Below are positions 6,773-36,061 of a stretch of 64,000 nucleotides of DNA, piece after piece. Made by a program: the position numbers and the translations under genes. Each line of letters starts with the position of its first letter. Position 1 is the first letter of the stretch. The notes beneath the pieces were generated by a model. It was given only the letters and a program-made list of their open reading frames with translations, was not told the origin of the DNA and made no database searches. The stretch lies in NCBI RefSeq assembly GCF_002188465.1, contig NZ_NINW01000025.1, positions 124,001 through 188,000 of the forward strand, written 5' to 3'. This stretch comes from Pigmentiphaga sp. NML080357 (GTDB lineage Bacteria; Pseudomonadota; Gammaproteobacteria; Burkholderiales; Burkholderiaceae_B).

Positions 6773-6850
6773 CCCCCCCGTACGCGCTGACGCGCGCCCC
6801 CCAGGGGGCGAAACCAGCGGACCGGCAGAGCCGGATCCGCGGTTTCCTGG
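6773..6850 (+). repeat. Structured intergenic repeat, copy A (after tuf)
   Basis: One of five ~80-bp copies in this window. It opens with a C-run, then a CGCGC-TGAC-GCGCG hairpin and a G-run, and closes with a long hairpin around GCGGACCGGC/GCCGGATCCGC. In this copy the outer part of the last hairpin is GAAACC (6810-6815) paired with GGTTTC (6841-6846). The equivalent bases in copies B, C and D are different but also pair, which points to selection on the fold. Confidence 0.8.
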
Positions 6851-6908
6851 ATCAGGAAGCGGCAGTGCAGGGGAGTGGTTGTAGTGCCAGCAGTGTTGAC
6901 TACTACTC

Positions 6909-6929
6909 GAGGCGAGGTTCCCTCGCCTC
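6909..6929 (+). promoter_or_regulatory. Perfect 9-bp hairpin before rpsJ
   Basis: GAGGCGAGG (6909-6917) pairs perfectly with CCTCGCCTC (6921-6929) around a TTC triloop, ending 21 bases before the rpsJ ATG. Only a weak CTCTTT follows, so termination is doubtful. It could be a target for feedback control of the S10 operon (L4 does this in E. coli through a leader hairpin), but this is inference from position. Confidence 0.4.
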
Positions 6930-6950
6930 ATCGCTCTTTAGGACAGTTTC

Positions 6951-7262
6951 ATGAAAAAGCAGAAGATTCGCATCCGCCTCAAGGCGTTCGATTACAAGCT
7001 CATCGACCAGTCGGCCGCTGAGATCGTCGAGACCGCCAAGCGCACGGGTGCCGTGGTTCGTGGTCCGGTTCCCCTGCCGACCCGTATCCGCCGCTACGAT
7101 CTGCTGCGTTCGCCGCACGTCAACAAGACGTCGCGCGACCAGTTCGAGATCCGCACCCATCAGCGCCTGATGGATATCGTGGATCCCACCGACAAGACCG
7201 TGGACGCCCTGATGCGCCTGGACCTGCCGGCCGGCGTGGATGTGGAAATCGCTTTGCAATAA
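6951..7262 (+). CDS. rpsJ: 30S ribosomal protein S10 (NusE)
   Basis: Head protein of the small subunit that also serves as NusE in transcription antitermination complexes with NusB and in NusG-mediated coupling. 103 residues, same length as E. coli. Contains the conserved loop segment [19 protein letters not shown]. Unlike the tight packing usual for the S10 operon, 242 bp containing a promoter-like sequence separate it from rplC. Confidence 0.98.
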
Positions 7263-7283
7263 CGTAGTATTTGCGCCCGGCGC

Positions 7284-7313
7284 TTGAAAAGGCGGTCGGG
7301 CGCGGGCTATACT
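7284..7313 (+). promoter_or_regulatory. Sigma70-like promoter between rpsJ and rplC
   Basis: TTGAAA (7284-7289), an 18-bp spacer and TATACT (7308-7313) lie in the 242-bp rpsJ-rplC gap. An inverted repeat, CGGGCTA (7303-7309) and TAGCCCG (7321-7327), covers the -10 and the expected start site, suggesting an operator or an early leader hairpin. If active, rplC onward would also be transcribed apart from rpsJ, with a leader of about 185 nt. Confidence 0.5.
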
Positions 7314-7504
7314 AGCCGGCTAGCCCGTGGGGTTTGCCTGCGGGCGTCTTTTGCGTTTGTCCCGGGGATATTGCCGGGCGCGCGAATCCGCTCTACCTGT
7401 CGAGTTTGGCGCGGTGCCTTCTTGGGCGCCGCTGTCTCGGCGCAGCGCTCAGGCGCGACGCCATTTTTAGCCCCGGCCAATCGCAGTCGGGAATGGAGAA
7501 AACG

Positions 7505-8185
7505 ATGTCGACCCAATCGACGGCCTCCACGCCAGCCGCATTCCGGCTCGGCCTGGTGGGTCGCAAGGTTGGCATGACCCGCATTTTCACGGACGATGGC
7601 GAGTCCATCCCCGTGACCGTGCTGGACGTGTCGAACAACCGTGTGACCCAGGTCAAATCCCCGCAAACGGACGGCTACGCCGCCGTTCAGGTCACGTTCG
7701 GTACGCGCCGTGCTTCGCGCGTCACCAAGCCCCTCACCGGCCACTTCGCGAAAGCTGGCGTGGAAGCGGGCAGCGTGCTCAAAGAATTCCGCCTTGATCC
7801 GGCCAAAGCGGCCGAGTTCGCTCCGGGCGCAGTCATTGCCGTGGAATCCGTGTTCTCGGTCGGCCAGAAGGTCGACGTGACGGGCACCACCATCGGTAAG
7901 GGCTTCTCGGGCGCGATCAAGCGTCACAACTTCTCGTCGAACCGCGCTTCGCACGGTAACTCGGTGTCGCACAACTCGGCCGGCTCCATCGGTATGGCGC
8001 AGGACCCGGGCCGCGTGTTCCCCGGCAAGAAAATGGCCGGGCACTATGGCGACGTCACCCGCACCGTGCAGAACCTCGACGTGATCCGCGTGGACGCCGA
8101 GCGCGGCCTGCTGCTGGTCCGTGGCGCCGTCCCGGGCCATGCCGGCGCGAACATCGTCGTTCGTCCCGCTGTGAAAGGAGCCTGA
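7505..8185 (+). CDS. rplC: 50S ribosomal protein L3
   Basis: Early-assembly 23S rRNA binder near the peptidyl-transferase centre. The open frame extends upstream to 7334, but GGAG (7495-7498) positions ribosomes at the ATG at 7505, giving 226 residues (E. coli 209). The true N-terminus therefore begins [17 protein letters not shown], a short polar extension before the conserved [13 protein letters not shown]. The long loop near the catalytic centre is represented by [18 protein letters not shown]. An alternative ATG at 7493 is poorly placed relative to the Shine-Dalgarno. Confidence 0.96.
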
Positions 8186-8187
8186 AC

Positions 8188-8811
8188 ATGGCAGATCTCA
8201 AGCTCCTGAATGACCAGGGCCAGGTCGCTGCAACCGTCAGCGCCCCCGACACCGTTTTCGGCCGCGAATTCAACGAAGCGCTGGTGCACCAGATCGTCGT
8301 CGCCTACCAGGCCAACGCCCGTAGCGGCAACCGCGCCCAGAAAGACCGCGCCGAAGTCAAGCACACGACCAAGAAGCCGTGGCGCCAGAAGGGTACGGGT
8401 CGCGCCCGCGCCGGTATGACGTCCTCGCCGCTGTGGCGTGGGGGTGGCCGGATTTTCCCGAATTCGCCCGAAGAAAACTTCAGCCAGAAAGTGAACAAGA
8501 AGATGTATCGCGCCGGTGTGCGCTCCATCTTGTCGCAACTGGCCCGCGAAGACCGGATCGCGATCGTCGAGAACTTCGTCGTCGACTCGCCCAAGACCAA
8601 AGTGGCCGCCGACAAGCTCAAGAGCCTGGGCTTGAACTCGGTCCTCATCATTACCGATACGGTTGACGAAAACCTCTATCTGGCCACGCGCAACCTGCCG
8701 CACGTGGCGGTGGTCGAGTCCCGTTATGCCGATCCGCTGTCGCTGATCCACTACAACAAAGTGTTGATCACCAAGCCCGCGATCGCTCAGCTCGAGGAGA
8801 TGCTGGGATGA
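8188..8811 (+). CDS. rplD: 50S ribosomal protein L4
   Basis: 23S rRNA binder with an extended loop lining the exit tunnel; in E. coli it is also the autogenous repressor of the S10 operon. 207 residues. The tunnel loop is visible as the basic [15 protein letters not shown] segment, which carries the lysine whose change gives macrolide resistance in other bacteria and is unaltered here. Two bases follow rplC, and the stop overlaps rplW by four bases (ATGA). Confidence 0.97.
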
Positions 8812-9107
8812 GCAACGACCGTCTGCTCCAGGTTCTGCTGGCGCCGATCGTCTCTGAAAAGAGCACGTTCATCGCCGACAAGAACCAGCAAGTGGCTTTC
8901 CGCGTCCTGCAAGACGCCACCAAGCCGGAAATCAAGGCTGCCGTCGAACTGCTCTTCAAGGTGCAGGTCGAGTCCGTGCAGGTTCTCAATACCAAGGGCA
9001 AAGTCAAGCGCTTTGGCCGCTTCATCGGCCGCCGCCGCAACGAGCGCAAGGCGTATGTGTCGCTGAAACCGGGTCAGGAAATCGACTTTGCGCAGGAGGT
9101 GAAGTAA
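8808..9107 (+). CDS. rplW: 50S ribosomal protein L23
   Basis: Tunnel-exit protein, the main docking point for trigger factor and signal recognition particle. 99 residues with the family's APIVSEKST start and [20 protein letters not shown] rRNA-contacting segment. Starts inside the end of rplD (ATGA) and abuts rplB with no spacer, so it is probably translated by coupling. Confidence 0.97.
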
Positions 9108-9935
9108 ATGCCCCTCGTCAAGCTGAAGCCGACTTCCGCCGGTCGCCGCGCGATGGTGAAGGTGGTTCACCCCCACCTGCACAAAGGTCGCCCGCTCGAC
9201 AGTCTGCTCGAAAAGCAGATGCAGAATGCCGGCCGCAACAACAACGGCCACATCACCACGCGTCACCGCGGCGGTGGTCACAAGCAACACTATCGCGTGA
9301 TCGATTTCAAGCGCACCAAGGACGGCATCCCGGCCAAGGTCGAGCGCATCGAATACGATCCGAACCGTACGGCGCACATCGCTCTGTTGTGCTATGCCGA
9401 CGGCGAACGTCGCTACATCATCGCCCCGCGCGGTCTTGAAGTCGGCGCCACGCTGGTCTCCGGTAGCGAAGCGCCCATCCGCGCTGGCAACACCCTGCCG
9501 ATCCGGAACATCCCGGTCGGCAGCACGATCCACTGCGTGGAAATGATCCCCGGCAAGGGCGCCCAGATGGTGCGTTCGGCGGGTGGGTCGGCCGTGCTGC
9601 TGGCTCGTGAAGGCACCTATGCCCAGGTTCGCCTGCGTTCGGGCGAAGTCCGCAAGGTGCACATCGAGTGCCGCGCGACCATCGGCGAAGTCAGCAACGA
9701 AGAGCATGGCCTGCGCCAGATCGGCAAGGCCGGTGCCACCCGTTGGCGCGGCATTCGCCCCACCGTTCGCGGTGTTGCCATGAACCCGATCGACCACCCG
9801 CACGGTGGTGGTGAAGGTCGTACCGGCGAAGCCCGTGAACCGGTCAGCCCCTGGGGCACTCCGTCCAAGGGTTTCAAGACCCGCCGCAACAAGCGGACGA
9901 GCAATATGATCGTCCAGCGGCGCAAGAAGAAGTAA
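9108..9935 (+). CDS. rplB: 50S ribosomal protein L2
   Basis: Highly conserved 23S rRNA binder at the subunit interface, needed for subunit association and peptidyl-transferase assembly. 275 residues with the glycine- and histidine-rich signature [14 protein letters not shown] near the C-terminus and a strongly basic tail. The ATG immediately follows the rplW stop. Confidence 0.98.
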
Positions 9936-9947
9936 GCGAGGCGAGCC

Positions 9948-10223
9948 ATGTCACGTTCGATCAAAAAAGGCCCGTTTGTCGACCTGCACCTTCTGAAGAA
10001 GGTCGAGGCGTCCACGGCCGGAAAAGACAAGCGCCCGATCAAGACCTGGTCGCGTCGTTCCACGATCCTGCCCGAGTTCATCGGTCTGACGATCGCGGTT
10101 CACAACGGCCGCCAGCATGTTCCCGTGTACATCAACGAGAACATGGTCGGTCACAAACTCGGCGAATTCGCGCTGACCCGTACGTTCAAGGGTCACGCCG
10201 CGGATAAGAAGGCCAAGAGGTAA
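9948..10223 (+). CDS. rpsS: 30S ribosomal protein S19
   Basis: Small-subunit head protein that pairs with S13 near the A site. 91 residues beginning [15 protein letters not shown] and containing the conserved [12 protein letters not shown] segment. 12 bp after rplB and 5 bp before rplV. Confidence 0.97.
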
Positions 10224-10228
10224 GCGCG

Positions 10229-10558
10229 ATGGAAACCACAGCGAAAGTCCGTGGCGTACGCGTGTCGGCCCAGAAGGCCCGTCTGGTCGCGGACATGATC
10301 CGCGGCAAGTCGGTGGCCCAGGCCATCAACATTCTGACGTTCACGCCCAAGAAGTCCGCAGGCATCATCAAGAAGGCGGTCGAATCCGCCATCGCGAATG
10401 CCGAGCACAACGATGGTGCCGATATCGACGAACTGAAGGTGAAAACCATCTACGTCGACAAGGGTACCTCGCTCAAGCGTTTCGACGCCCGCGCCAAGGG
10501 CCGCGGCGTCAAGATCGAGAAGCAGACGTGCCACATCGTGGTTACGGTCGGCAGCTAA
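10229..10558 (+). CDS. rplV: 50S ribosomal protein L22
   Basis: Exit-tunnel protein whose beta-hairpin forms the tunnel constriction with L4. 109 residues; the hairpin is the basic stretch [17 protein letters not shown] near the C-terminus, intact with no macrolide-resistance deletion. Lies between rpsS and rpsC in the standard order. Confidence 0.97.
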
Positions 10559-10567
10559 GGAGCCACG

Positions 10568-11434
10568 ATGGGACAGAAAATTCACCCGACCGGGTTCCGT
10601 CTCTCGGTCAGCCGTAACTGGTCGTCGCGCTGGTTCGCCAGCGGCAACGCCTATGCCGGCATGCTGGCGGAAGACATCAAGGTCCGCGAATACCTGAAGA
10701 AGAAGCTGAAAGGCGCTTCCGTGGGTCGCGTGGTCATCGAGCGTCCCGCCAAGAACGCACGCGTCACGGTGTACTCGGCTCGTCCGGGCGTCGTGATCGG
10801 CAAGAAGGGCGAGGACATCGAGATCCTCAAGGCCGACCTGCAGCGCCTGATGGGCGTGCCCGTGCACGTCAACATCGAAGAGATCCGCAAGCCGGAGGTC
10901 GACGCTCAGCTGATCGCCGACTCGATCGCCCAGCAGCTCGAGAAGCGCATCATGTTCCGCCGCGCGATGAAGCGCGCCATGCAGAACGCCATGCGTCTCG
11001 GCGCCCAGGGCATCAAGATCATGAGCTCGGGTCGTCTGAACGGCATCGAAATCGCCCGTACCGAGTGGTACCGCGAAGGCCGTGTGCCCCTGCACACCCT
11101 GCGCGCCAACATCGACTACGGCACTTCCGAAGCCGGCACGACCTATGGCCTGATCGGCATCAAGGTGTGGGTCTACAAGGGCGACACCCTGGGCTCGGCC
11201 GAACTGGCTGCCGCCCCGGAAGCAACCAAGGACGAAGAGCGCAAGCCGCGTCGCGGCCCGCGTAACGATCGTGGCGATCGCCCGGGCAACCGCCCCGGCG
11301 CCGGCCGTGGTCGTGGCGGCCGCAGGCCCGAAGGCGAGGCAGCCGCTGCTGCCGCGCCCGAAGGCGGCGCCCGGCGTGCGCCGCGCAAGCCGGCTGCCGA
11401 CGCGGCAGCCGCGCCTGCCAAAGACGGAGAATAA
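10568..11434 (+). CDS. rpsC: 30S ribosomal protein S3 with long low-complexity tail
   Basis: mRNA-entry-channel protein with ribosomal helicase activity together with S4 and S5. The first ~210 residues are a standard S3, including the KH domain with the [11 protein letters not shown] loop. The remaining ~70 residues are a disordered tail rich in Arg-Gly, Ala and Pro ([12 protein letters not shown], then alanine runs), making 288 residues against 233 in E. coli. The tail is probably lineage-specific and may add RNA contacts. Nine bp after rplV, two bp before rplP. Confidence 0.97.
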
Positions 11435-11436
11435 GC

Positions 11437-11853
11437 ATGCTGCAGCCATCGCGCAGGAAATACCGCAAGGAACAAAAAGGCCGCAATACCGGCCTGGCTA
11501 CGCGCGGCGCCAACGTCTCGTTCGGCGAATTCGGTCTGAAGGCCACGGGTCGTGGCCGCCTGACCGCTCGCCAGATCGAGTCGGCTCGTCGTGCCATCAC
11601 CCGCCACATCAAGCGTGGCGGCCGTATCTGGATCCGTGTCTTCCCGGACAAGCCGATCTCGCAGAAGCCCGCCGAAGTCCGGATGGGTAACGGCAAGGGC
11701 AACCCGGAGTACTGGGTTGCCGAGATCCAGCCCGGCAAGGTGCTGTACGAGATGGAAGGCGTCAACGAGGAACTGGCGCGCGAGGCGTTCCGCCTGGCCG
11801 CTGCCAAGCTCCCGATCTCGACCGTCTTCGTGACGCGTCACCTCGGGACGTAA
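11437..11853 (+). CDS. rplP: 50S ribosomal protein L16
   Basis: Late-assembling large-subunit protein beside the A-site tRNA elbow and the peptidyl-transferase centre. 138 residues beginning [20 protein letters not shown], with the conserved [17 protein letters not shown] segment. Starts two bases after the rpsC stop. Confidence 0.97.
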
Positions 11854-11863
11854 GGAGAAAGCA

Positions 11864-12055
11864 ATGAAGGCAAGCGAACTCCGTTCGAAAGACGCTGCCG
11901 AGCTCGGCAAAGAGCTCGAGGGTCTGCTTAGGGCTCAGTTCAGTCTGCGCATGCAGCTGGCTACCCAGCAGCTTTCCAACACCAGCCAGCTCGGCAAGGT
12001 CCGCCGCGACATCGCGCGCGTCCGTACCGTGCTGCGCGAGAAAGCCGGGAAGTAA
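11864..12055 (+). CDS. rpmC: 50S ribosomal protein L29
   Basis: Small two-helix protein near the tunnel exit, next to L23. 63 residues with the typical [18 protein letters not shown] start and a C-terminal [16 protein letters not shown] helix. Three bases separate it from rpsQ. Confidence 0.96.
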
Positions 12056-12058
12056 AAC

Positions 12059-12319
12059 ATGAGCGAAACCAAGCTGAAGACGCTGACCGGTCGTGTGGTC
12101 AGCGACAAGATGAACAAAACGGTGACCGTGCTGGTCGAGCGCCGCGTGAAGCACCCGCTCTACGGCAAGATCGTCGTGCGTTCGAACAAGTATCACGCTC
12201 ACGACGAAACCAACCAGTACAAGACTGGCGACCTGGTCGAGATCTCGGAGACCCGTCCGGTTTCCAAGACCAAGGCCTGGTCGGTGGTGCGTCTGGTGGA
12301 AGCCGCGCGCATTATCTGA
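12059..12319 (+). CDS. rpsQ: 30S ribosomal protein S17
   Basis: Primary 16S rRNA 5'-domain binder with an OB fold, 86 residues (E. coli 84). The conserved [20 protein letters not shown] start and [11 protein letters not shown] loop are present. It is the last gene of the S10 operon here, followed at 41 bp by a strong intrinsic terminator. rplN, its usual downstream neighbour, is 14.3 kb away. Confidence 0.97.
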
Positions 12320-12360
12320 TCGATCGCCGGCGGAAAGTGCACTCGCGCTTTCCCGCTAGA

Positions 12361-12400
12361 GCCGCCGGGAGTCTCTCGACTCCCGGCGGCTTTTTGTTTT
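12361..12400 (+). terminator. Intrinsic terminator of the S10 operon
   Basis: GCCGCCGGGAGT (12361-12372) pairs perfectly with ACTCCCGGCGGC (12379-12390) around a 6-nt loop and is followed by TTTTTGTTTT (12391-12400). It closes the S10 transcript and isolates it from the two-component genes downstream. Confidence 0.93.
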
Positions 12401-12503
12401 CCTGGGGTATTCCCTTGGCGCGCCAGCGCCGGAGGCGGCACGGACCTTGCTCTGCCTTGGGTGGCCCTGCCTGGTCTTTTCCGGGCGGCGGTCTGGAGCC
12501 GAC

Positions 12504-13652
12504 ATGTTCGCCGACCTCAAGCACATTTCGCATCATGCAGCGTGGCGCCGGCAGCTCGAAATGCTGCTGGAATCAGCGGGCGAGGGGATCTATGGGATAG
12601 ACCTGAGAGGCCGCTGCATCTTCATCAATCGTGCCGGCGCCGACATGCTCGGATATGCCCCGGACGAAGTGGTGGGGCGGAACATGCACTACCTGATCCA
12701 CCACTCGCATCCCGACCTCACGCTCATGCACGTCGAGCACTGCCGGATTTTCCAGGCGTTTCGCGAAGGCCGGGGCGTGCGCGTGGAGGACGAGGTGCTG
12801 TGGCGCCGTGACGGCAGCTGTTTCGATGCGCAGTATGCGTCGTATCCCATACATGACAATGACCGGGTGGTCGGGGCGGTCGTCATGTTCTCGGACATAT
12901 CCGAGCGGCGCCGCATGGAGCGGGAACTGCAGCGCTCGTACGCCTTGTTGGAGCGCCGGGTGCAAGAGCGTACGTCACGGCTGCAGTCAGCCCATGAATC
13001 GTTGCGCCGGCTGTCGGCGCACCTGAGCACGCTGCGGGAAGAAGAGCGCGCACGGATTGCGCGCAATATCCACGACGATCTCGGCGCTTCGTTCACGGCG
13101 CTGCAGCTGGAGCTGAACTGGCTCCGCCGGCAACTGGGCGCCGAGCCGGCGTTGCAAGGACATGTCGAGCGTATGCTGGAGGTGGCCCAGAAGGCAATGG
13201 AAGCCACGCGGCGCATCGTGAATGACCTGCGTCCCGCGGTCCTGGACCACGTGGGGCTGTGGGCGGCGCTGGAAGCGCTTTTGCTGGACCTGCAACTGCG
13301 CGCCGGCTTGGCTTGCCGTTTCGTATGTGCTCCCCAAGCGGAGCGTTGCAGACTAGGCCGCAGCGCGGAAATCGAGGTCTACCGGATCGTCCAGGAGCTG
13401 GCCACCAATGTCACGCGGCACGCCCAGGCGCGCGCCGTCAACCTGGTCGCCGAGGTGCGCACGGGTTGCCTGGTGCTATCTTTCGAGGACGACGGCGTGG
13501 GCATGCCGCCATCCGAACCGCTGCATACCTTCGGCATCCTCGGGATGCAGGAGCGCGCCCGCGCCATCGGCGCCGTCCTCGAGCTGGACAGCGCGCCCGG
13601 GGCGGGTACGCGGGCCCGGCTCACGCTGCCTGATGTTCCGGTGGGACCATGA
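12504..13652 (+). CDS. PAS-domain sensor histidine kinase, NarX/HisKA_3 type
   Basis: Cytoplasmic-looking histidine kinase (no transmembrane segments) that would phosphorylate the regulator encoded next to it. In the 382-residue product, a PAS domain spans about 15-135, a coiled coil about 135-185, a HisKA_3 dimerisation box IARNIHDDLGASFTALQLEL has the phosphoacceptor His190, and a HATPase domain ends the protein (N box ELATNVTRHA, G box DDGVGM). The start at 12504 follows GGAG; the frame is open 19 codons upstream. First gene of the insert between rpsQ and rplN. The signal is unknown; the cyanate operon downstream is a plausible target. Confidence 0.9.
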   Translation: MFADLKHISHHAAWRRQLEMLLESAGEGIYGIDLRGRCIFINRAGADMLGYAPDEVVGRNMHYLIHHSHPDLTLMHVEHCRIFQAFREGRGVRVEDEVLWRRDGSCFDAQYASYPIHDNDRVVGAVVMFSDISERRRMERELQRSYALLERRVQERTSRLQSAHESLRRLSAHLSTLREEERARIARNIHDDLGASFTALQLELNWLRRQLGAEPALQGHVERMLEVAQKAMEATRRIVNDLRPAVLDHVGLWAALEALLLDLQLRAGLACRFVCAPQAERCRLGRSAEIEVYRIVQELATNVTRHAQARAVNLVAEVRTGCLVLSFEDDGVGMPPSEPLHTFGILGMQERARAIGAVLELDSAPGAGTRARLTLPDVPVGP

Positions 13653-14287
13653 GATTGAACATCTTGGTCGTCGATGACCATATGATCATCCGCCGCGGGC
13701 TGGCACGATTGCTGGGCGAGGATCCGCGCATCGCCCGGGTCGACGAGGCGGCCGACGGCCCGTCGGCGCTGCGGGCATTGCGCCGGGGAGCCTATCACGC
13801 CATGGTGCTGGACATCGCGTTGGGCGAGCGTGACGGGCTGGATGTCTTGAAGTCCGTTCGCGGCGAGTTTCCCATGCTGGGCGTGGTCATGCTGTCGGTC
13901 TATCCGGAGTCGCAACTGGCGGTCCGCGCTCTGCGTAGCGGTGCCCATGCCTACCTGAACAAGGGCTGCGAACCGGACGATCTGCTGGCTGCCCTGGCCA
14001 GCGCCGCCGCCGGCAAGTCCTACGTGACGCCCGCCGTGGCGGAGCTATTGGCCAGTACGGTTCGCCAGGATCGGCCCCAGGCGCCCCACGAACTGCTGTC
14101 CAACCGCGAGTTCCAGGTGCTGCAATTGCTCGTCGCGGGCAAGTCGGTGTCCGCCATTGGCGAACACCTGGTACTGTCGGCCAACACGATCTCGACCTAT
14201 CGCGGCCGCATCTTCGAGAAGCTCGGCGTGCGCAGCATCGCGGAGCTGGTCGCCTATGCCCGTGCGCACGGCCTGCACCTGATCTAG
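13649..14287 (+). CDS. NarL/FixJ-family response regulator
   Basis: DNA-binding partner of the kinase just upstream; the start codon overlaps the kinase stop (ATGA). 212 residues: receiver domain with acidic pocket D9/D10, phosphoacceptor Asp55 and Lys105, then a LuxR-type helix-turn-helix (about 145-210, LSNREFQVLQLLVAGKSVSA). The 167-bp gap downstream, before the cyanate operon, carries three GTAGTG-type half-sites that could be its binding array. Confidence 0.93.
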   Translation: MRLNILVVDDHMIIRRGLARLLGEDPRIARVDEAADGPSALRALRRGAYHAMVLDIALGERDGLDVLKSVRGEFPMLGVVMLSVYPESQLAVRALRSGAHAYLNKGCEPDDLLAALASAAAGKSYVTPAVAELLASTVRQDRPQAPHELLSNREFQVLQLLVAGKSVSAIGEHLVLSANTISTYRGRIFEKLGVRSIAELVAYARAHGLHLI

Positions 14288-14301
14288 GGCGCGCTGCACC
14301 A

Positions 14302-14340
14302 GTAGTGCGCATCGCGTGCACCGCGTAGTGGGAGCACTAC
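14302..14340. promoter_or_regulatory. Three GTAGTG half-sites upstream of the cyanate operon
   Basis: GTAGTGC occurs at 14302-14308, GTAGTG at 14325-14330, and its inverse GCACTAC at 14334-14340. The last two form the palindrome GTAGTG-GGAG-CACTAC. Spacing and dyad symmetry suit a NarL-type regulator. A CTTTTTC follows, so a weak terminator for the regulator gene is an alternative reading. Confidence 0.4.
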
Positions 14341-14454
14341 AGCTTTTTCATCGAAACCGGGATACCCGCGCCGATGCCATCCGCGCACCATGACGCCATG
14401 CCTGAACCGCGGCGGGGAACGCTGCGCCGGGCCATGTTGCCAGGGTGCTACGCA

Positions 14455-15141
14455 ATGAAGAAAACCGGGTTCCGACTGGGTATCTACGTTTTCAAGGACG
14501 CCGAGGTCATCGATTATGCCGCGCCCTACGGCGTGTTCTCGGTGGCGCGCCGCTTCGATCCCGAACTCGATGTGTTCCTGGTGGGCGAGGCGCTCCGGCC
14601 GGTCCAGACCCAGGCCGGCCTGACGGTGCTCCCGGCCTATGGTTTCAACGATGCCCCGGCGATGGACGCCTTCCTGATTCCCGGCGGATTCGGTACCCGT
14701 CAGGAAATGCATAACCGGCGGCTGCACGACTATATCGCGGCATTGCCGCCCGAGTGCCTGCTGACCAGTGTTTGCACCGGCTCCTGGATATACGCGCGCA
14801 TGGGGCTGCTGGATGGACGATCGGCCACCAGCCGCAAGGAACCGGACCGGCTGGAGGCTTCGCACCTGGGCCGGACCCCGATCGACCGGCTGGCTGCCTT
14901 GGCGCCTGCATGCCGTGTGAGCCGCGCTCGGGTCGTGGATGCCGGCCGCATCATCACCGCGGGTGGCATCGCCAGCGGCCACGAACTGGGCCTGCACTTG
15001 CTGCGGCGTGCCGGCTATGCCGAAGACTTCATCGAGGACACGGCACGGGTCATGGAGTACCAACGGGCCTATGAGCTGTACCGGGAAGACATCGAGTTCG
15101 CGCCGTCCTTGTCCCCAGATATCCCTGCCTCGTTCCCTTGA
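14455..15141 (+). CDS. DJ-1/PfpI family protein, isonitrile hydratase-like
   Basis: Class I glutamine-amidotransferase-like enzyme with a nucleophile elbow SVCTGSW (Cys107). The N-terminal GIYVFKDAEVIDYAAPYGVF segment resembles isonitrile hydratases and the sensor domains of GlxA-type regulators; there is no C-terminal DNA-binding domain, so the 228-residue protein stands alone as an enzyme or chaperone. It is the first gene of the operon for a cyanate-type transporter and cyanase, 12 bp before the binding-protein gene. A hydration role on isonitriles or related cyano compounds is attractive but inferred. The ATG at 14455 is chosen because conserved sequence starts there; the frame is open to 14374. 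Confidence 0.75.
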   Translation: MKKTGFRLGIYVFKDAEVIDYAAPYGVFSVARRFDPELDVFLVGEALRPVQTQAGLTVLPAYGFNDAPAMDAFLIPGGFGTRQEMHNRRLHDYIAALPPECLLTSVCTGSWIYARMGLLDGRSATSRKEPDRLEASHLGRTPIDRLAALAPACRVSRARVVDAGRIITAGGIASGHELGLHLLRRAGYAEDFIEDTARVMEYQRAYELYREDIEFAPSLSPDIPASFP

Positions 15142-15153
15142 GTGGAGTCCGTC

Positions 15154-17354: not shown

Positions 17355-17357
17355 CCA

Positions 17358-18607: not shown

Positions 18608-18616
18608 CCGCGCGAC

Positions 18617-25225: not shown

Positions 25226-25291
25226 GTTGAACGTCCTGTAGGCGAATGTGTCGATGGCAACACTGTGGGGCTGGGCGCAAGCTTTGTGTAG

Positions 25292-25306: not shown

Positions 25307-25332
25307 GACATCTGTTCCTGAAAGGAAAAGGT

Positions 25333-26993: not shown

Positions 26994-27003
26994 AGGGGCC
27001 GCG

Positions 27004-27321: not shown

Positions 27322-27336
27322 GCGGGAGCAAAGAAC

Positions 27337-27876: not shown

Positions 27877-27887
27877 GGGGTGAAATA

Positions 27888-28193: not shown

Positions 28194-28204
28194 GAGAGTC
28201 ATTC

Positions 28205-28600
28205 ATGAGCATGAGCGATCCGATCGCCGATATGCTGACGCGCATCCGCAATGCGCAGCGCGTAGATAAGGCGTCCGTGTCCATGCCCTCCTCGAAGCTG
28301 AAGGTGGCGATCGCCACCGTGCTGAAGGACGAGGGCTACATCGACGGTTTCGAGGTCAAGGCCAACGACGGCAAACCCGAACTCGAGATCACCCTGAAGT
28401 ACTACGCCGGCCGTCCGGTCATCGAGCGCATCGAACGCGTCTCGAAGCCCGGCCTGCGTATCTACAAGGGACGTCATTCCATTCCCCAGGTCATGAACGG
28501 CCTGGGCGTGACCATCGTGTCCACCTCCCGTGGCGTGATGACCGATCGCAAGGCGCGCGCCAACGGCGTGGGCGGCGAGGTCCTCTGCTACGTGGCGTAA
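28205..28600 (+). CDS. rpsH: 30S ribosomal protein S8
   Basis: 16S rRNA central-domain binder; in E. coli the autogenous repressor of the spc operon. 131 residues with the C-terminal [20 protein letters not shown] signature. The ATG at 28205 follows GGAGAG; a second in-frame ATG two codons later (28211) is less well spaced. Confidence 0.97.
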
Positions 28601-28609
28601 GGAGTCGAC

Positions 28610-29143
28610 ATGTCGCGTATAGCTAAATATCCCGTCGAGCTGCCCAAGGGCGTCGAGGCCACCATCGCTGCCGACCAGATCACCGTCAAGGGTCCGCTGG
28701 GCACGCTGGTGCAGGCGCTGACCGGCGAAGTCACGATCCAGCAGGATGCCGGCAAGCTGACGTTCGCCGCTGCCAACGACAGCCGCGAAGCCAAGGCCAT
28801 GTCCGGCACCGTGCGCGCCCTGGTCAACAACATGGTGACCGGCGTCAGCAAGGGCTTCGAGCGCAAGCTGACCCTGGTCGGCGTGGGTTATCGTGCCCAG
28901 GCCCAAGGCGATGCCGTCAAGCTGCAGCTCGGTTTCTCGCACGATGTCGTGCACAAGATGCCCGCCGGCGTGAAGGTTGAGTGCCCCTCGCAGACCGAAG
29001 TCATCGTCAAGGGGGCCAACAAGCAACAGGTTGGTCAGGTGGCCGCAGAAATCCGCGCCTACCGCTCTCCCGAGCCCTACAAGGGCAAGGGCGTGCGCTA
29101 TGCGGACGAGCGGGTCATCATCAAAGAGACCAAGAAGAAATAA
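28610..29143 (+). CDS. rplF: 50S ribosomal protein L6
   Basis: Large-subunit protein beside the sarcin-ricin loop and factor-binding site. 177 residues, two repeated alpha/beta domains, with the C-terminal [16 protein letters not shown] motif. Eighteen bp before rplR. Confidence 0.97.
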
Positions 29144-29161
29144 GGCGGGCAAGGACGAATC

Positions 29162-29527
29162 ATGGACAAGAAGCAAGCTCGTTTGCGTCGTGCGGTACCT
29201 ACCCGCCGGAAGATCGCCGAGTTGCGCGTGCATCGCCTGTCGGTGTTCCGCTCCAACCTGCACATCTACGCAAACATCATTTCGCCGGAAGGCGATAAGG
29301 TGCTGGTCAGCGCCTCGACCGTCGAACCCGAAGTCCGCCAGCAGCTGGCAGGCGAGTCGGGCAAGGGCGGCAACGTGGCCGCAGCAACCCTGGTGGGCAA
29401 GCGCGTGGCCGAAAAGGCCAAGGCTGCCGGTATCGAGACCGTCGCGTTCGATCGCAGCGGTTTCCGCTACCACGGCCGCGTCAAGGCCCTGGCTGATGCC
29501 GCGCGTGAAGCCGGTCTGAAGTTTTAA
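29162..29527 (+). CDS. rplR: 50S ribosomal protein L18
   Basis: 5S rRNA binder of the central protuberance, 121 residues (E. coli 117). Basic N-terminus, then [16 protein letters not shown] and the C-terminal [20 protein letters not shown] segment typical of the family. Eleven bp before rpsE. Confidence 0.97.
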
Positions 29528-29538
29528 GCGAGGATTAC

Positions 29539-30060
29539 ATGGCCAAGATGCAAGGCAAGAATGCAGCGGCTGAGGAACGCGACGACGGTCTTCGCGAGAA
29601 GATGATTGCCGTCAACCGCGTCACGAAGGTCGTGAAGGGCGGTCGTATCCTCGGTTTCGCGGCGCTGACGGTGGTCGGCGACGGCGATGGTCGCGTCGGC
29701 ATGGGCAAGGGCAAGGCCCGGGAAGTCCCGGTCGCGGTCCAGAAAGCCATGGAAGAAGCCCGTCGCAAGATGGTCAAGGTGCCGCTGAAGAACGGTACCC
29801 TGTATCACAACGTGGTTGGCAAGCATGGCGCCTCGACCGTTCTGATCTCGCCCGCCGTCGAAGGTACCGGCGTGATCGCCGGCGGCCCGATGCGCGCGAT
29901 CTTCGACGTGCTCGGCGTTCGTAACGTGGTGGCCAAGAGCCTCGGCTCGACCAACCCGTACAACCTCGTGCGCGCGACGCTCAACGGTCTGAGCGCAAGC
30001 TCGACTCCGGCCGAAGTCGCCGCCAAGCGCGGCAAGTCGGTCGAAGAGATCCTGGGGTAA
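29539..30060 (+). CDS. rpsE: 30S ribosomal protein S5
   Basis: Accuracy and mRNA-helicase protein of the small-subunit body. 173 residues. The double-stranded RNA-binding-like domain contains [19 protein letters not shown], and the spectinomycin-loop region KVVKGG shows no deletion. Three bp before rpmD. Confidence 0.97.
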
Positions 30061-30063
30061 GCC

Positions 30064-30249
30064 ATGACTAAGAAGAACGTCAAAGTGACGCTCGTGCGTT
30101 CCCCCATCGGAACGCCCGAATCGCATCGCGCCACGGTGCGCGGTCTGGGTCTGCGCCGCCTGAACAGCTCGCGCGTCCTGGTCGATACGCCGGAAGTGCG
30201 CGGGATGATCCGCAAGGTGTCCTATCTGGTCACCGTGTCGGAAGCCTGA
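30064..30249 (+). CDS. rpmD: 50S ribosomal protein L30
   Basis: Small non-essential large-subunit protein, 61 residues, with [20 protein letters not shown] and the [19 protein letters not shown]-terminus characteristic of the family. Ten bp before rplO. Confidence 0.96.
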
Positions 30250-30259
30250 GAGGTCTAGC

Positions 30260-30691
30260 ATGCAACTGAATACGCTCAAGCCGGCCGCCGGCAGCAAGCA
30301 CGCCAAGCGCCGCGTCGGTCGTGGTATCGGCTCCGGCCTCGGCAAGACCGCCGGCCGTGGCCACAAGGGCCAGAAGTCGCGTTCGGGCGGCTTCCACAAG
30401 GTCGGTTTCGAAGGCGGCCAGATGCCGCTGCAGCGCCGCCTGCCCAAGCGTGGTTTCTCCACCATGGGCCAGCACCTGTACGCACAGGTCCGTCTGTCGG
30501 AACTGCAGGCCCTGCCGGTCGAGGAAATCGACGTGCAGGCGCTCAAGCAGGCCGGCGTGGTCGGCCAGCAAGTGCGCTACGTCAAGGTCATCAAGACCGG
30601 CGAGCTCTCCCGCAAGGTGGTGCTCAAGGGCATGACGGCCACGGCAGGTGCCAAGGCGGCGATCGAAGCCGCCGGTGGTTCCCTGGTCTGA
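30260..30691 (+). CDS. rplO: 50S ribosomal protein L15
   Basis: Late-assembly 23S rRNA binder, 143 residues. The glycine-rich N-terminal arm [20 protein letters not shown] is clearly visible. Precedes secY by 18 bp. Confidence 0.97.
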
Positions 30692-30709
30692 ATAACCGAG
30701 GACTGAGCT

Positions 30710-32032
30710 TTGGCTAATGCGAACGCACTGGGCAAGACCGGCAAGTACGGCGACCTGAAGCGCCGGCTGGTCTTCCTGTTGCTCGCCCTGGTGGTGTACC
30801 GGATCGGTACGCACATCCCTGTTCCCGGGATCGACCCGGTCCAGCTGACTTCCCTGTTCCACCAGAACCAGGGCGGGATACTGGGCCTGTTCAACATGTT
30901 CTCGGGCGGTGCGCTTTCGCGTTTCTCGATCTTTGCATTGGGGATCATGCCGTACATCTCGGCGTCGATCATCATGCAGCTGATGACGGTCATCGTGCCG
31001 TCGTTGGAAGCGATCAAGAAGGAAGGCGAGGCCGGGCGGCGCAAGATTACGCAGTACACGCGCTACGGAACGCTGGCGCTTGCGCTGGTGCAGTCGGTCG
31101 GCATCTCGGTCGCGCTGGAGTCGCAGCCCGGGCTGGTGGTCGATCCGGGCCTGATGTTCCGGGTCACCACGATGATCTCGCTCGTCACGGGAACGATGTT
31201 CCTGATGTGGCTGGGTGAGCAGATCACCGAGCGGGGCCTGGGCAACGGCATCTCGATCCTGATCTTCTCGGGCATCGCGGCGGGGCTGCCCCAGGCGCTG
31301 GCCGGGCTGTTCGAGCTGGTCAACACCGGGGCGATGGCCGTGCTGTCGGCGCTGTTCATCGTCGTGCTGGTGGTGCTGGTGACGGCTTTCGTGGTGTTCG
31401 TCGAACGCGGGCAGCGCAAGATCGTCGTCAACTACGCCAAGCGCCAGGTGGGCAATCGGGTGTACGGCGGCCAGAGCTCGCATTTGCCGCTGAAGCTGAA
31501 CATGGCCGGGGTGATTCCGCCGATCTTCGCATCGTCGATCATCCTGTTCCCGGCCACGGTGGTCAGCTGGTTCTCGAGCGGCGACGGCCTGCGCTGGCTG
31601 AAGGACCTGGCCGCCGCGCTGTCGCCCGGGCAACCGCTGTACATCACGCTGTACGCCATTGCGATCGTGTTCTTCTGCTTCTTCTACACGGCGCTCGTGT
31701 TCAACAGCCGCGAGACTGCCGACAACCTGAAGAAGAGCGGCGCGTTCGTGCCGGGCATCCGTCCGGGCGAGCAGACCGCGCGGTACATCGACAAGATCCT
31801 GATGCGCCTGACGTTCACCGGCGCCATCTACATCACGTTGGTGTGCCTGCTGCCGGAGTTCCTGGTCTTGCGTTGGAATGTGCCGTTCTATTTCGGTGGC
31901 ACGTCTTTGCTGATTATCGTTGTGGTCACGATGGATTTCATGGCCCAGGTGCAGGCTTACGTGATGTCGCACCAATACGATTCCCTGCTCAAGAAGGCGA
32001 ACTTCAAGGGCGGAAATCTACCGGTGCGGTAA
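30710..32032 (+). CDS. secY: Preprotein translocase subunit SecY
   Basis: Channel of the SecYEG translocon, ten membrane segments in 440 residues. The start is TTG (30710), supported by GAGG eight bases upstream and by the N-terminus [20 protein letters not shown]; no ATG gives a plausible alternative. Plug-region ([19 protein letters not shown]) and cytoplasmic loop residues ([11 protein letters not shown]) are conserved. Seven bp before infA. Confidence 0.97.
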
Positions 32033-32039
32033 CGAGAAT

Positions 32040-32258
32040 ATGTCCAAAGACGACGTTATCCAGATGCAGGGCGAGGTCCTGGAAAACCTGCCCAATGCGA
32101 CGTTTCGTGTAAAGCTCGAGAATGGCCATGTCGTGCTGGGACATATCTCGGGAAAAATGCGGATGAACTACATCCGCATCCTGCCGGGGGATCGTGTGAC
32201 GGTCGAGTTGACGCCATACGATCTATCACGGGCAAGAATCGTGTTCCGCTCGAAGTAA
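32040..32258 (+). CDS. infA: Translation initiation factor IF-1
   Basis: OB-fold factor that occupies the A site during initiation. 72 residues, same length as E. coli, starting [20 protein letters not shown]. Placement between secY and rpmJ is common in betaproteobacteria and Gram-positives, unlike E. coli where infA is elsewhere. Confidence 0.97.
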
Positions 32259-32294
32259 GCGCCAGGCTTGCCGGGTAAGAATTAGGAGTCAATC

Positions 32295-32408
32295 ATGAAA
32301 GTAATGGCATCGGTCAAAGCAATTTGCCGGAACTGCAAGGTCATCAAGCGCAAGGGCGTGGTCCGCATCATCTGCACCGACCCGCGCCACAAGCAACGCC
32401 AGGGCTGA
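32295..32408 (+). CDS. rpmJ: 50S ribosomal protein L36
   Basis: Smallest large-subunit protein, 37 residues. It is the zinc-binding type: Cys11, Cys14, Cys27 and His32 form the C-x2-C-x12-C-x4-H ribbon. TAGGAGT precedes the ATG. It is the C+ paralogue; a zinc-independent copy may exist elsewhere. 35 bp before rpsM. Confidence 0.95.
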
Positions 32409-32443
32409 GCCCGGGCTAGCACTAAGGTATTCAAGGAAACGTT

Positions 32444-32809
32444 ATGGCCCGTATCGCTGGCATCAACATTCCGCCGCATCAGCACACCGAAATCGGTCTG
32501 ACGGCTATCTTCGGCATTGGCCGCTCGCGCGCTCGCAAGATCTGCGAAGCCGCCGGCGTGCCGACCGACAAGAAGGTCAAGGATCTGAACGACGCCGAGC
32601 TCGAGCGTATCCGCGAACAGGTAAATGCCGTCACCGTCGAGGGCGACCTGCGTCGTGAGATCCAGCTGTCGATCAAGCGTCTGATCGACCTTGGCTCCTA
32701 CCGTGGTTTCCGCCACAAGCGCGGCCTGCCCGTGCGTGGCCAGCGTACCCGCACGAACGCCCGTACCCGCAAGGGCCCGCGTCGCGCCGCGGCTGCGCTC
32801 AAAAAGTAA
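32444..32809 (+). CDS. rpsM: 30S ribosomal protein S13
   Basis: Head protein contacting L5 and P-site tRNA, 121 residues. Starts [20 protein letters not shown] and ends in the basic tail [16 protein letters not shown]. First gene of the alpha-operon portion; 29 bp before rpsK. Confidence 0.97.
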
Positions 32810-32838
32810 ACGGCTGATACCCAGTCAAGGATTCAGAA

Positions 32839-33240
32839 ATGGCGAAATCCCCCTCCAGCGGCGCCCAGCGCGTTCGCAAGAAAGTCAAGAAGAACGTTTC
32901 GGACGGCATCGCGCACGTCCACGCGTCCTTCAACAACACCATCATCACGATCACGGATCGCCAGGGCAACGCGCTGTCGTGGGCCACGTCGGGCGGCGCC
33001 GGCTTCAAGGGCTCGCGCAAGTCCACGCCGTTTGCGGCCCAGGTCGCTGCGGAGTCGGCTGGCCGCGTGGCGATGGAATATGGCATCAAGACGCTGGAAG
33101 TGCGCATCAAGGGCCCCGGCCCCGGCCGCGAGTCGTCGGTTCGCGCCCTGAACGCGCTCGGCATCAAGATCTCCAGCATCGCCGACATCACGCCGGTGCC
33201 GCACAACGGCTGCCGTCCGCCGAAGCGTAGAAGGATCTAA
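32839..33240 (+). CDS. rpsK: 30S ribosomal protein S11
   Basis: Platform protein lining the E site, 133 residues. Conserved [19 protein letters not shown] and the C-terminal [16 protein letters not shown] are present. A 354-bp gap with structured repeat copy B follows before rpsD, although the two genes are usually almost adjacent. Confidence 0.97.
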
Positions 33241-33594
33241 GCCCACCCCCTACCCGCTGCGCGGGCCCCCTCAAGGGGGCGGCACTGGCGGACCGGCGGA
33301 GCCGGATCCGCTGTGCCCTGGGTCGGTTGGCTCGTTGCCCGTTGTGCAACATTGCCTGGGGCTGCCGGAGTTGGGCTTGGACCTGATTTCGGGGAAGGGT
33401 GCAAAGCGCGGTAGAATTGTGGGCTTTGCTGTTTGCAGTACGCAGTTTTTATTGTTTGATGGGGGCGCAGCCGGCGTGGGCTGGGTGCGCCGAGTAAGAC
33501 CACCGTTTGCCGCGTTCTGGTTCATCGAACGTAAATGACCAAGGCAAACTCCTCGCCATGCGTGTGCATGGCCTGACAGAGAAAAGGATACATC
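33241..33594. other. Enlarged rpsK-rpsD gap
   Basis: 354 bp without a supported gene. The first ~80 bp are repeat copy B; the remainder includes an AT-rich patch (TAGAAT at 33412, a T-run near 33448) but no -35 at proper spacing. I see no convincing promoter or terminator. Confidence 0.4.
33246..33323 (+). repeat. Structured intergenic repeat, copy B (after rpsK)
   Basis: Same three-stem layout as the copy after tuf. Here the internal hairpin is CCCGC-TGC-GCGGG instead of CGCGC-TGAC-GCGCG, with both sides changed together. The outer last stem is GGCAC (33281-33285) with GTGCC (33313-33317). It begins six bases after the rpsK stop. Confidence 0.8.
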
Positions 33595-34218
33595 GTGGCA
33601 CGTTATATTGGCCCCAAGTGTAAGCTTTCCCGCCGCGAAGGCACGGACCTCTTCCTGAAGAGCGCCCGGCGTTCGCTGGATTCCAAGTGCAAGCTCGAGA
33701 GCAAGCCCGGCCAGCATGGCCGCACCTCGGGTGCTCGCACGTCCGACTACGGCCTGCAGCTGCGCGAGAAGCAGAAGCTCAAGCGCATGTACGGCGTGCT
33801 GGAAAAGCAGTTCCGCAAGTATTTCGAAGAAGCCGATCGCCGCAAGGGCAACACCGGCGAGAACCTGATCCAGTTGCTCGAGTCGCGCCTGGACAACGTG
33901 GTGTATCGCATGGGTTTCGGCTCGACCCGCGCCGAAGCGCGCCAGCTGGTCAGCCACAAGGCCCTGCTGCTGAATGGCCACACCGCCAACGTGCCGTCCA
34001 TCATCGTCAAGCCGGGCGATGTGATCACCGTGCGTGAAAAGGCCAAGAAGCAAGCCCGTATCCAGGAAGCGCTGCAACTGGCCTCCAGCCAGGGTATCCC
34101 CCAGTGGGTCAGCGTCGACATGACCAAGCTCGAAGGCACCTTCAAGCAGGCCCCGGATCGCGCCGACGTCGCCCGCGACGTCAACGAATCCATGGTCGTG
34201 GAACTCTACTCCCGTTAA
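33595..34218 (+). CDS. rpsD: 30S ribosomal protein S4
   Basis: 16S rRNA assembly initiator and, in E. coli, repressor of the alpha operon. 207 residues with the S4 RNA-binding domain (about 95-155, [13 protein letters not shown]). GTG start (33595) after GAGAAAAGG; the N-terminus [20 protein letters not shown] confirms it. Confidence 0.97.
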
Positions 34219-34260
34219 TCGAACAAAGGCGGCGGAAAAAACGCCGCCGGCTTGTAATCC

Positions 34261-34340
34261 CCCCGGGGCACTGCGGATCCGGCTTTGCCGGTCCGCCAGT
34301 GCCGCCCCTCGAGGGGCGCGCGTCAGCGCGTAGGGGTGGG
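34261..34340 (-). repeat. Structured intergenic repeat, copy C (after rpsD, inverted)
   Basis: The only inverted copy. On the + strand it reads GGCACT (34267-34272) ... AGTGCC (34298-34303), which pair, flanking the conserved GCGGATCCGGC/GCCGGTCCGC core. The other end has a CCCC-TCGA-GGGG hairpin and the CGCGC/GCGCG stem. Located between rpsD and rpoA. Confidence 0.8.
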
Positions 34341-34398
34341 CCATTCCTCCACCAGCCTTATCGGTGTAACGAGCCGAGGGTATTGATAAGGAAGATTC

Positions 34399-35385
34399 AT
34401 GGCGAATGCCGCATTTCTGAAGCCACGCAACATCGACGTCGAGACCATCGGCCCGAATCACGCCAAGGTGATCATGGAGCCGTTCGAGCGCGGCTATGGC
34501 CATACGCTGGGCAACGCGCTGCGCCGCATCCTGCTGTCCTCGATGGCCGGCTATGCGCCCACGGAAGTCCAGATCACCGGCGTCGTGCACGAGTATTCGG
34601 CCATCGACGGCGTGCGTGAAGACGTGGTCGACATCCTCCTGAACCTGAAGGGTGTCGTGTTCAAGCTGCACAACCGCGACGAAGTCGTGCTGACCCTGCG
34701 CAAGCAAGGGCCCGGCGTCGTCACCGCCGCGGACATCGAGGTCTCGCATGACGTCGAGATCATCAATCCCAACCACGTCATCGCCAACCTGACGGACAAC
34801 GGCCGTCTGGAAATGCAATTGAAGGTGGAGAAGGGCCGCGGCTACGTGCCGGGCAACCTGCGCAGCTTCGCCGACGATCACGCCCGCACCGTGGGCCGTA
34901 TCGTGCTGGACGCTTCGTACAGCCCGATCCGCCGTGTGAGCTACACCGTCGAAAGCGCCCGCGTGGAGCAGCGTACCGACCTCGACAAGCTGGTGCTCGA
35001 TATCGAGACCAACGGCGTGATCTCGCCCGAGGAAGCCGTGCGCCAGTCGGCTCGCATCCTGATGGACCAGTTGTCGGTGTTCGCCGCGCTGGAAGGCTCG
35101 ACCGAGACCATCGAGGCGCCCGCCCGCGGCACGCCGCAGATCGATCCGATCCTGCTGCGCCCGGTCGACGACCTCGAACTCACGGTGCGCTCGGCCAACT
35201 GTCTGAAGGCCGAGAACATCTACTACATCGGCGACCTGATCCAGCGTACCGAGAACGAGTTGCTCAAGACCCCGAACCTGGGCCGCAAGTCGCTCAACGA
35301 GATCAAGGAAGTCCTGGCTGCCCGCGGCCTGACCCTGGGCATGAAGCTGGAAAATTGGCCTCCTCTGGGCCTGGAAAGGCCGTAG
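34399..35385 (+). CDS. rpoA: DNA-directed RNA polymerase alpha subunit
   Basis: Assembles core RNA polymerase and contacts UP elements and activators. 328 residues: N-terminal dimerisation/assembly domain (1-~235), linker, C-terminal domain with the DNA-contact segment [15 protein letters not shown] and helix [12 protein letters not shown]. Flanked on both sides by structured repeats (copies C and D). Confidence 0.98.
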
Positions 35386-35388
35386 GGG

Positions 35389-35469
35389 CCCCCCCTACGC
35401 GCTGACGCGCGCCCCCCCCAGGGGGCGGCACTGGCGGACCGGCGGAGCCGGATCCGCTGTGCCCTGGGT
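35389..35469 (+). repeat. Structured intergenic repeat, copy D (after rpoA)
   Basis: Starts three bases after the rpoA stop. Outer last stem GGCAC (35427-35431) pairs with GTGCC (35459-35463), as in copy B. It is followed by a further imperfect hairpin, GTAGCGAA (35468-35475) with TTCGTTAC (35482-35489), before rplQ. Confidence 0.8.
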
Positions 35470-35594
35470 AGCGAAGCTTTTTTCGTTACGTAGTTGTAGT
35501 ACCAAGAATTTTTCCACCGGCCCGCGGCGTGTTGCCGATAGAAGAGCTGGAAACCCGCGGCACCGCCGCTTTTAGATTCATAAAGGAAGTCATC

Positions 35595-35978
35595 ATGCGT
35601 CACCGTCACGGTCTCCGTAAACTGAACCGCACCAGCAGCCACCGCCTGGCCATGTTCCGCAACATGGCTGTCTCGCTGCTCACGCACGAAGCCATCAAGA
35701 CCACCCTGCCCAAGGCCAAGGAACTGCGCCGTATCGTCGAGCCGCTGATCACGCTGGGCAAGGAACCCACCCTGGCCAACAAGCGCCTGGCGTTCGCCCG
35801 CCTGCGCGACCGTGACCTGGTGGTCAAGCTGTTCGCCGACATCGGCCCCCGCTTCAAGGATCGCAACGGTGGTTACACCCGCATCCTGAAGATGGGCTTC
35901 CGCCAAGGCGACAACGCTCCCATGGCCTACATGGAGCTGGTCGACCGCGCGCCCGAGGCGGAAGAAGCCGCGGAATAG
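35595..35978 (+). CDS. rplQ: 50S ribosomal protein L17
   Basis: Tunnel-exit-side large-subunit protein, 127 residues. The frame is open to 35529, but AAAGGAAG precedes the ATG at 35595 and gives the family start [20 protein letters not shown]. Last gene of the alpha operon, closed by a repeat and an intrinsic terminator. Confidence 0.97.
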
Positions 35979-36061
35979 TAGAGCCCCCCCTACGCGCTGC
36001 GCGCGCCCCCCAGGGGGCTCTACTTACGGACCGGCAAAGCCGGATCCGCGGCGCCCCGGGT
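35978..36061 (+). repeat. Structured intergenic repeat, copy E (after rplQ)
   Basis: Here the outer C-run/G-run stem is extended: GTAGAGCCCCC (35978-35988, starting in the rplQ stop codon) pairs perfectly over 11 bp with GGGGGCTCTAC (36013-36023). This shows which C-run pairs with the G-run in the family. The outer bases of the last hairpin do not pair in this copy. Confidence 0.78.

Follow-up and report, generated by a model that had tools for sequence, protein, structure and literature searches.

Ribosomal gene gaps of Pigmentiphaga sp. NML080357 hold arms of a probable REPIN-like repeat that is dispersed over the genome and linked to stop codons

The 64,000-nucleotide stretch of Pigmentiphaga sp. 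NML080357 analyzed here (the window; contig NZ_NINW01000025.1, positions 124,001 to 188,000) carries five copies of a structured repeat of about 80 bp in the gaps of its ribosomal genes, raising the question of whether the repeat serves those genes or belongs to something larger. A preliminary description of the window had held that the copies were confined to ribosomal operon gaps, that compensated stem changes argued for a selected fold, and that mRNA processing, 3'-end protection or partial termination were possible roles. We located all five copies in the gaps named there. Copy A (6773..6855, + strand) starts 6 nt past the tuf stop and carries the variant GAAACC/GGTTTC in its long hairpin (H3); copy B (33243..33325, +), with a body of the L type, starts 2 nt past the rpsK stop; copy C (34260..34340, -) lies inverted in the rpsD/rpoA gap; copy D (35387..35471, +) starts 2 nt past the rpoA stop; and copy E (35980..36064, +) starts 4 nt past the rplQ stop. 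The other reported variants were also seen, namely GGCAC/GTGCC in B and D, GGCACT/AGTGCC in C and CCCGC/GCGGG in B, together with the stem extension in E, where the C-run/G-run stem is prolonged through AGTAGAG/CTCTACT into a predicted 12-bp stem. A profile search at E<1e-2 returned just these five copies in the window and none in its accessory regions, as described.

Confinement to ribosomal gaps proved true inside the window alone. The host genome comprises 5.735 Mb in 59 contigs, and we sampled 1,556,939 bases (1.557 Mb) of it with a profile started from the five window copies and iterated (cut-off E<1e-3), using the reversed sequence as control. The census returned 115 copies and the control none. 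One stretch of contig C9 had been sampled because it held an array (7 of the 115 copies); with this stretch left out, 108 copies remained in 1.537 Mb, a density that would give about 400 in the whole genome. The exact 20-base core GGACCGGCNNNGCCGGATCC occurs 225 times in the whole genome (control, 0). Overlapping 64-kb windows of the sample held a mean of 4.26 copies (range 0-15, n=162), so the five copies of our window are an average number, and at least 4 copies within 3 kb were met at seven further places. We rejected an enrichment at ribosomal genes, as density and clustering there equal those of the rest of the sample. The genome-wide scatter refutes a ribosome-specific element, and the five copies are very probably single arms of a dispersed palindromic repeat resembling repetitive extragenic palindromes (REPs) and REPINs. 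By the gene positions of our own gene caller, which trimmed some starts (e.g., that of rplQ), 101 of the 115 copies are wholly intergenic, eight touch a gene and one overlaps a gene by more than half.

The scatter, which the preliminary description would have taken as refutation if random, is strongly linked to stop codons. The 5' end was intact in 89 of the 115 copies, and a stop codon on the same strand lay at -12..60 nt from that end in 50 of them, at -3..8 nt in 44 and at 0..8 nt in 36. Random placement in intergenic gaps gave 1.8 expected copies at 0..8 nt, with a maximum of 7 in 2000 runs. At the other end, 15 of 107 copies faced an opposing stop within -12..60 nt of the 3' end. A looser open-frame test gave 52/89 in the host genome and 29/37 in regions of five related genomes, compared to 313/3000 random intergenic places (Fisher p 5.6e-27 and 1.7e-21, respectively), and 15/98 for 3' ends against opposing stops. 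At 16 top-scoring loci in 15 more genomes, three of them inside the genus and 12 outside it, the element started -2 to 10 nt behind an open frame of 80 codons or more in 15 cases; these loci are best matches rather than a random sample, the position at L188 is extrapolated from a partial match, and G005 is the exception. With 2 copies at E<=0.01 in 400 kb, G005 holds too few to serve as an independent test of the stop link. Genes with an element at -3..15 nt showed a weak excess in stop codon usage (TAG 17/45, TAA 9/45; Fisher p 0.08 and 0.048), to which we gave no weight.

The arrangement of neighboring copies points to the REPIN-like character of the repeat. Of 31 neighbor pairs less than 400 bp apart, 19 were inverted with their 5' ends outward, and the remainder were tandem, six on either strand. 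The spacer measured 81-85 nt in 13 of the 19 inverted pairs, making the whole unit a palindrome of about 245 bp, and two spacer types were readable, both with inverted-repeat ends. Members of such doublets account for 38 of the 115 copies. One doublet folded as single-stranded DNA gave -130.9 kcal/mol, compared to -56.9 +/- 3.7 for shuffled versions (z -19.8). Among the 59 singlets, which were classed by loose letter patterns that will have missed some remnants of the doublet center, a recognizable piece of doublet spacer was found in 20 and an array-type tail in two. At one site a doublet is present in the host genome, and four relatives keep the distal arm and part of the center alone.

Arrays were found at three places of the host genome, with six copies at C9:40843-41431 (L125), three at C57:52953-53235 (absent at the orthologous site in the relatives G151 and G199) and two at C12:280142-280320. 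They repeat a partial arm made of H3 alone at a spacing of about 102 bp behind one full arm. A recurrent junction was also seen, in which an arm cut at the H3 tip (GGACCGG) runs into the beginning of an L-type arm (..CCCACCCC). The seven cases come from three genomes and two genera (near C1:340237, C56:23835, C56:57502, C56:131578 and C56:192093 of the host genome, and in L185 and L188). Five further joins in the host genome fall in or behind the first hairpin (H1) of an S-type arm. The junctions look like insertion or switching at hairpin tips.

The arm of about 80 nt is predicted to fold into a closing stem and three hairpins, H1, H2 and the long H3 with its conserved bulged A; the 5' half of copy E prefers a different predicted pairing. 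Against dinucleotide shuffles, the five window copies reached fold z-scores of -1.99 to -3.81, and between 0 and 8 of 200 shuffles folded equally well. We examined covariation in 61 copies, made up of 59 of the 74 full-length sample copies (near-duplicates removed) and window copies D and E. In this set 95.2% of the paired cells were complementary, compared to 90.1% with the 3' letters redealt and 31.5-47.0% with the partners slid. Two-sided changes were found at 11 of 27 pairs (6.3 expected) and the covariation score was 0.208 (0.111 shuffled), neither of which was reached in any of 500 shuffles; the copies are paralogous, the shuffles ignore relatedness, and the structure was taken from folds of members of the set. 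The fold and its covariation are thus statistically supported, as the preliminary description had it, and to take compensation as proof of selection on the fold would be too strong: it was scored between the scattered copies of a single repeat, which by itself is no proof of RNA selection. In the rpsK gap, the relatives G151 and G179 have different H3 variants at the same site within flanks that are 98% alike. Such swapping of whole stem variants at one site in close relatives suggests that copies are replaced or converted, and mutation by template switching is known from imperfect palindromes (PMC7202029).

Two details of the window touch on this subject. In the segment 35976-36025, copy E has the 5' flank AGTAGAG, which overlaps the rplQ stop and is complementary to the CTCTACT of the arm; other copies with CTCTACT have unrelated 5' flanks, unlike copy E, and its flank may have been written by template switching. 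A second tuf-like 3' end in the host genome (C57:60470-60620, element at C57:60495) carries a near-identical element and the same next 40 bases or so as window 6700-6900, as if gene conversion between the two tuf copies ran through the element.

The ribosomal sites were compared among eleven genomes of the genus. The element is present at the tuf junction in 7/11 (inverted in two; the junction is partly covered in G135), at the rpsK junction in 7/11, in the rpsD/rpoA gap in 5/11, always inverted and not seen in the other six, and, among the ten genomes with sequence there, at the rpoA junction in 6/10; the rplQ junction is occupied in 2/10. In G073, G096 and G116 no element was found in any ribosomal gap examined. 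Different paired stems occupy the same site, with GAAACC/GGTTTC and GGGAC/GTCCC at tuf, and GATGC/GCATC and GGCAC/GTGCC at rpsK. Filled and empty sites were also found elsewhere. G179 has an element where G151 and the host genome have a 2-nt gap between two frames, and the host genome has one at an ATGA stop/start overlap of G151 and G199. At the latter site (C57:46629), ATGA stands on both sides of the insert and might be a target-site duplication like that of a miniature inverted-repeat transposable element (MITE); no such repeat was evident at the other seven sites. The differences at other compared sites span more sequence and do not represent clean insertions.

The family extends beyond the genus. 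An exact 22-base pattern was found in 30 of 200 genomes of the family and 6 of 43 genera, and the 20-base core in 10 of 399 sampled genomes of the order. Within the genus, the 22-base pattern numbers 0 in G116, 1-7 in G135, G096 and G073, and 77-183 in the other seven genomes. An exact scan with the 5' half of the element returned 10 stretches, in Pigmentiphaga, Verticiella and one Burkholderiales metagenome-assembled genome. Pigmentiphaga kullae, an environmental species that can be cultured, has 102 exact core matches. A structure model was positive in 17 of 18 genomes, most of them chosen as core carriers and each scored up to 150 matches; the negative genome was G116, and the positive ones included another family of the order (G366, 94 matches; G247, 26). 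One genome (G100, g6) gave 116 matches to the structure model and none to the exact 22-base core, and its elements are perhaps a sister variant of the family.

We attempted to find the factor that moves the repeat. The REP-associated tyrosine transposase (RAYT; Y1_Tnp, PF01797) was found in none of the seven high-copy genomes of the genus, the host genome included. In the genus as a whole PF01797 was matched in 1/11 genomes, by a 31-position fragment in the near-empty G135, and among carriers outside the genus in 4/15, with one match each. The repeat family therefore does not require a RAYT today. An autonomous parent transposon was not seen either: 19 pairs of plus- and minus-strand elements 0.3-4 kb apart, in 11 regions, enclose genes, whose products were not searched. 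One such pair surrounds rpsD. A phage search gave no match at E 1e-5. A plasmid search at E up to 1 returned 30 records, many from unrelated GC-rich genera, and was not used as evidence. Its weak matches to the H3 portion of the element include L177:2501-2550 (Variovorax) and L178:2501-2544 (Achromobacter); they start some 40 and 60 nt past the ends of annotated genes, which agrees with the stop link. A match on a Methylibium plasmid, annotated as transposase, lies inside a frame whose sole Pfam match is HTH_Tnp_1 (residues 12-61) and was judged incidental. A bolder account, which we regard as improbable, would have a mobile palindrome with a real preference for sites behind stop codons, moved by an enzyme other than a RAYT, so that gene ends across the Burkholderiales have repeatedly been fitted with a four-helix 3' stem-loop.

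Partial termination, proposed in the preliminary description, found little support. More ribosomal genes follow copies A-D, and a separate T-rich, terminator-like stem-loop (AATCCCCAT...ATGGGGATTTTT; 36086..36122, +, read from the sequence) stands 3' of copy E. None of the five copies has a run of T directly behind H3; in copy D a run of six T follows about 14 nt further on and is broken in relatives. A terminator scan of 33150-36200 (copies B-E) listed four terminator-like sites against 2.7 expected, one of which (35455-35473; a 6-pair stem with 3 G-C pairs) overlaps the 3' edge of copy D; the loop limit of the scan was 8, which the stem-loop at 36086..36122 exceeds, and it is hence unlisted. 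An Rfam scan of the window gave no family above the gathering score at the copies. Its single match was a glycine riboswitch aptamer elsewhere (54344-54454, -, 62.1 bits).

Taken together, we consider it probable that the five copies represent a REPIN-like family without RAYT, neither specific to ribosomal genes nor a terminator, whose arm is tolerated or used as a 3' stem-loop of mRNA. The unit would spread as a doublet, through a factor other than an extant Y1 (RAYT) transposase, and settle in gene junctions. An arm beside a downstream start codon would often be lost, and an arm behind a stop codon would be kept because it does no harm or is of use in that place. Arms in the ribosomal operon would form part of a polycistronic transcript, and any effect they have would be that of a 3' stem-loop on the cistron before them, slowing 3'-to-5' decay. 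We put forward this use as a 3' stem-loop tentatively, at somewhat less than an even chance. Genes with an element (n=46, ribosomal region excluded) had a median codon adaptation of 0.724, compared to 0.683 for 360 control genes followed by a gap of 85 nt or more (p=4.6e-5), which fits use at, or tolerance by, well-expressed genes.

Several results weigh against the account we prefer. No RAYT accompanies the repeat in the high-copy genomes, 37 of the 59 singlets lack a recognizable doublet center under the loose patterns described above, and 5 of the 115 copies lie inside called genes, some of which may be errors of the caller. The stop link is unequal between arm types, with 34 of 45 S-type arms and 5 of 22 L-type arms linked (typing covers 67 of the 89 copies with an intact 5' end). 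Among the helices, the closing stem is the weakest, at 87.4% pairing and without any two-sided change. The opposite strand gives the more stable fold for four of the five window copies (slightly less stable for copy B), so a barrier to exonuclease alone would not demand the observed orientation. In co-directional gaps, 58 copies are sense and 27 antisense, and this bias is explained without an RNA function, since a doublet has a 5' end on each of its outer sides.

The last point favors a neutral or selfish repeat that does nothing for its host, the best-placed of the alternatives, which we rate as possible and rather unlikely. By this route a symmetric doublet enters short junctions and arms that hide ribosome-binding sites are lost, leaving an outward 5' end behind the stop automatically. 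It agrees with the finding that certain empty sites consist of a 2-nt gap or ATGA overlap, with exact 22-base core counts ranging from 0 to 183 among the species of a single genus, and with the gain and loss of ribosomal-gap copies between relatives. Against neutrality, the rpsK (7/11) and rpoA (6/10) sites are occupied though flanks and stem variants have turned over, the genes bearing an element have the higher codon adaptation, and the stems hold their pairing, and the bulged A is retained, through many variants. It also appears quite improbable that the arm is a translational damper. In E. coli, REPs within 15 nt of a stop likewise place a stem-loop directly behind it (PMC12306157), and a stable stem at that distance would, as is reported for those REPs, slow terminating ribosomes and lower the output of the upstream gene. 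About 11% of 4,072 predicted E. coli REPs lie within 15 nt of a stop, and 260 of 496 in earlier work cited there (PMC12306157); the corresponding count here, 44 of 89 intact copies at -3..8 nt, suits such a role, but the hosts include tuf, rpsK, rpoA and rplQ and their high codon adaptation fits it poorly. We think it very unlikely that the element is a source of small RNA, as a stable transcript or a processed 3'-untranslated-region RNA, on the model of bprJ/BRE in B. pertussis. BRE, a repeat of about 90 bp in Bordetella and other Betaproteobacteria, was indeed found through bprJ transcripts on Northern blots (PMC3110155), but it numbers at most 29 copies per genome against the 400 or so estimated here (PMC3110155), and its mean GC content in Bordetella is 69.0% against 77% here (two matches only). 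An element specific to ribosomal operons, for processing or partial termination, is hardly credible despite five of five window copies in ribosomal gaps, given the genome-wide distribution with the window at average density, the separate stem-loop behind copy E and the three relatives whose examined ribosomal gaps are empty.

A REPIN-like, RAYT-less family thus remains the account we favor, and published repeats place it as follows. REPINs and bacterial interspersed mosaic elements built of REPs, known in gammaproteobacteria with RAYTs, resemble it in being high-copy extragenic palindromes with tandem arrays and compensatory hairpin changes (PMC3116915); REPINs are also inverted doublets that fold into one long hairpin, and their singlets are regarded as remnants (PMC3116915). 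The unit here is larger, with an arm of about 80 nt, a doublet of about 245 bp and a predicted four-helix arm in place of one short hairpin, and the high-copy genomes lack a RAYT. The GTAG/GTGG head that the REP-RAYT literature places 5' of the palindrome (PMC2817692) is missing here; the consensus has CTAC before H1, and hence GTAG 3' of that palindrome on the other strand. The Bor repeats of Bordetella, which belongs to a related group, are REP-like stem-loops that measure 26-30 bp and lie close to coding regions (PMC1590033); they are possibly related to our family. The N and purine positions in their legend would suit the H3 loop, a likeness offered as a lead (PMC1590033), and that paper describes only a short hairpin, unlike the full arm here. 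BRE, with 75-91 bp in Bordetella, is likewise mostly intergenic, often tandem and strain-variable, and is also found in Comamonadaceae and one Rhodocyclaceae genome (PMC3110155); it differs in its 1-29 copies per genome and in tandem units with no or few bases between them (PMC3110155). In the open literature, which leaves most subscription journals outside, we found no description of the arm, the doublet or the stop-codon link. Bor and BRE were the nearest repeats described there, and our family is tentatively kept apart from them.

The analysis removes a false lead, that of an RNA element of the ribosomal operon. What is gained is a large natural set of insertions and empty sites behind stop codons in closely related species, those of tuf, rpsK, rpoA and rplQ included. 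This set would allow the effect of a stem 2-8 nt past a stop on mRNA decay and translation to be measured directly. It also prompts one to ask what enzyme mobilizes REPIN-like repeats in genomes without a recognized RAYT.

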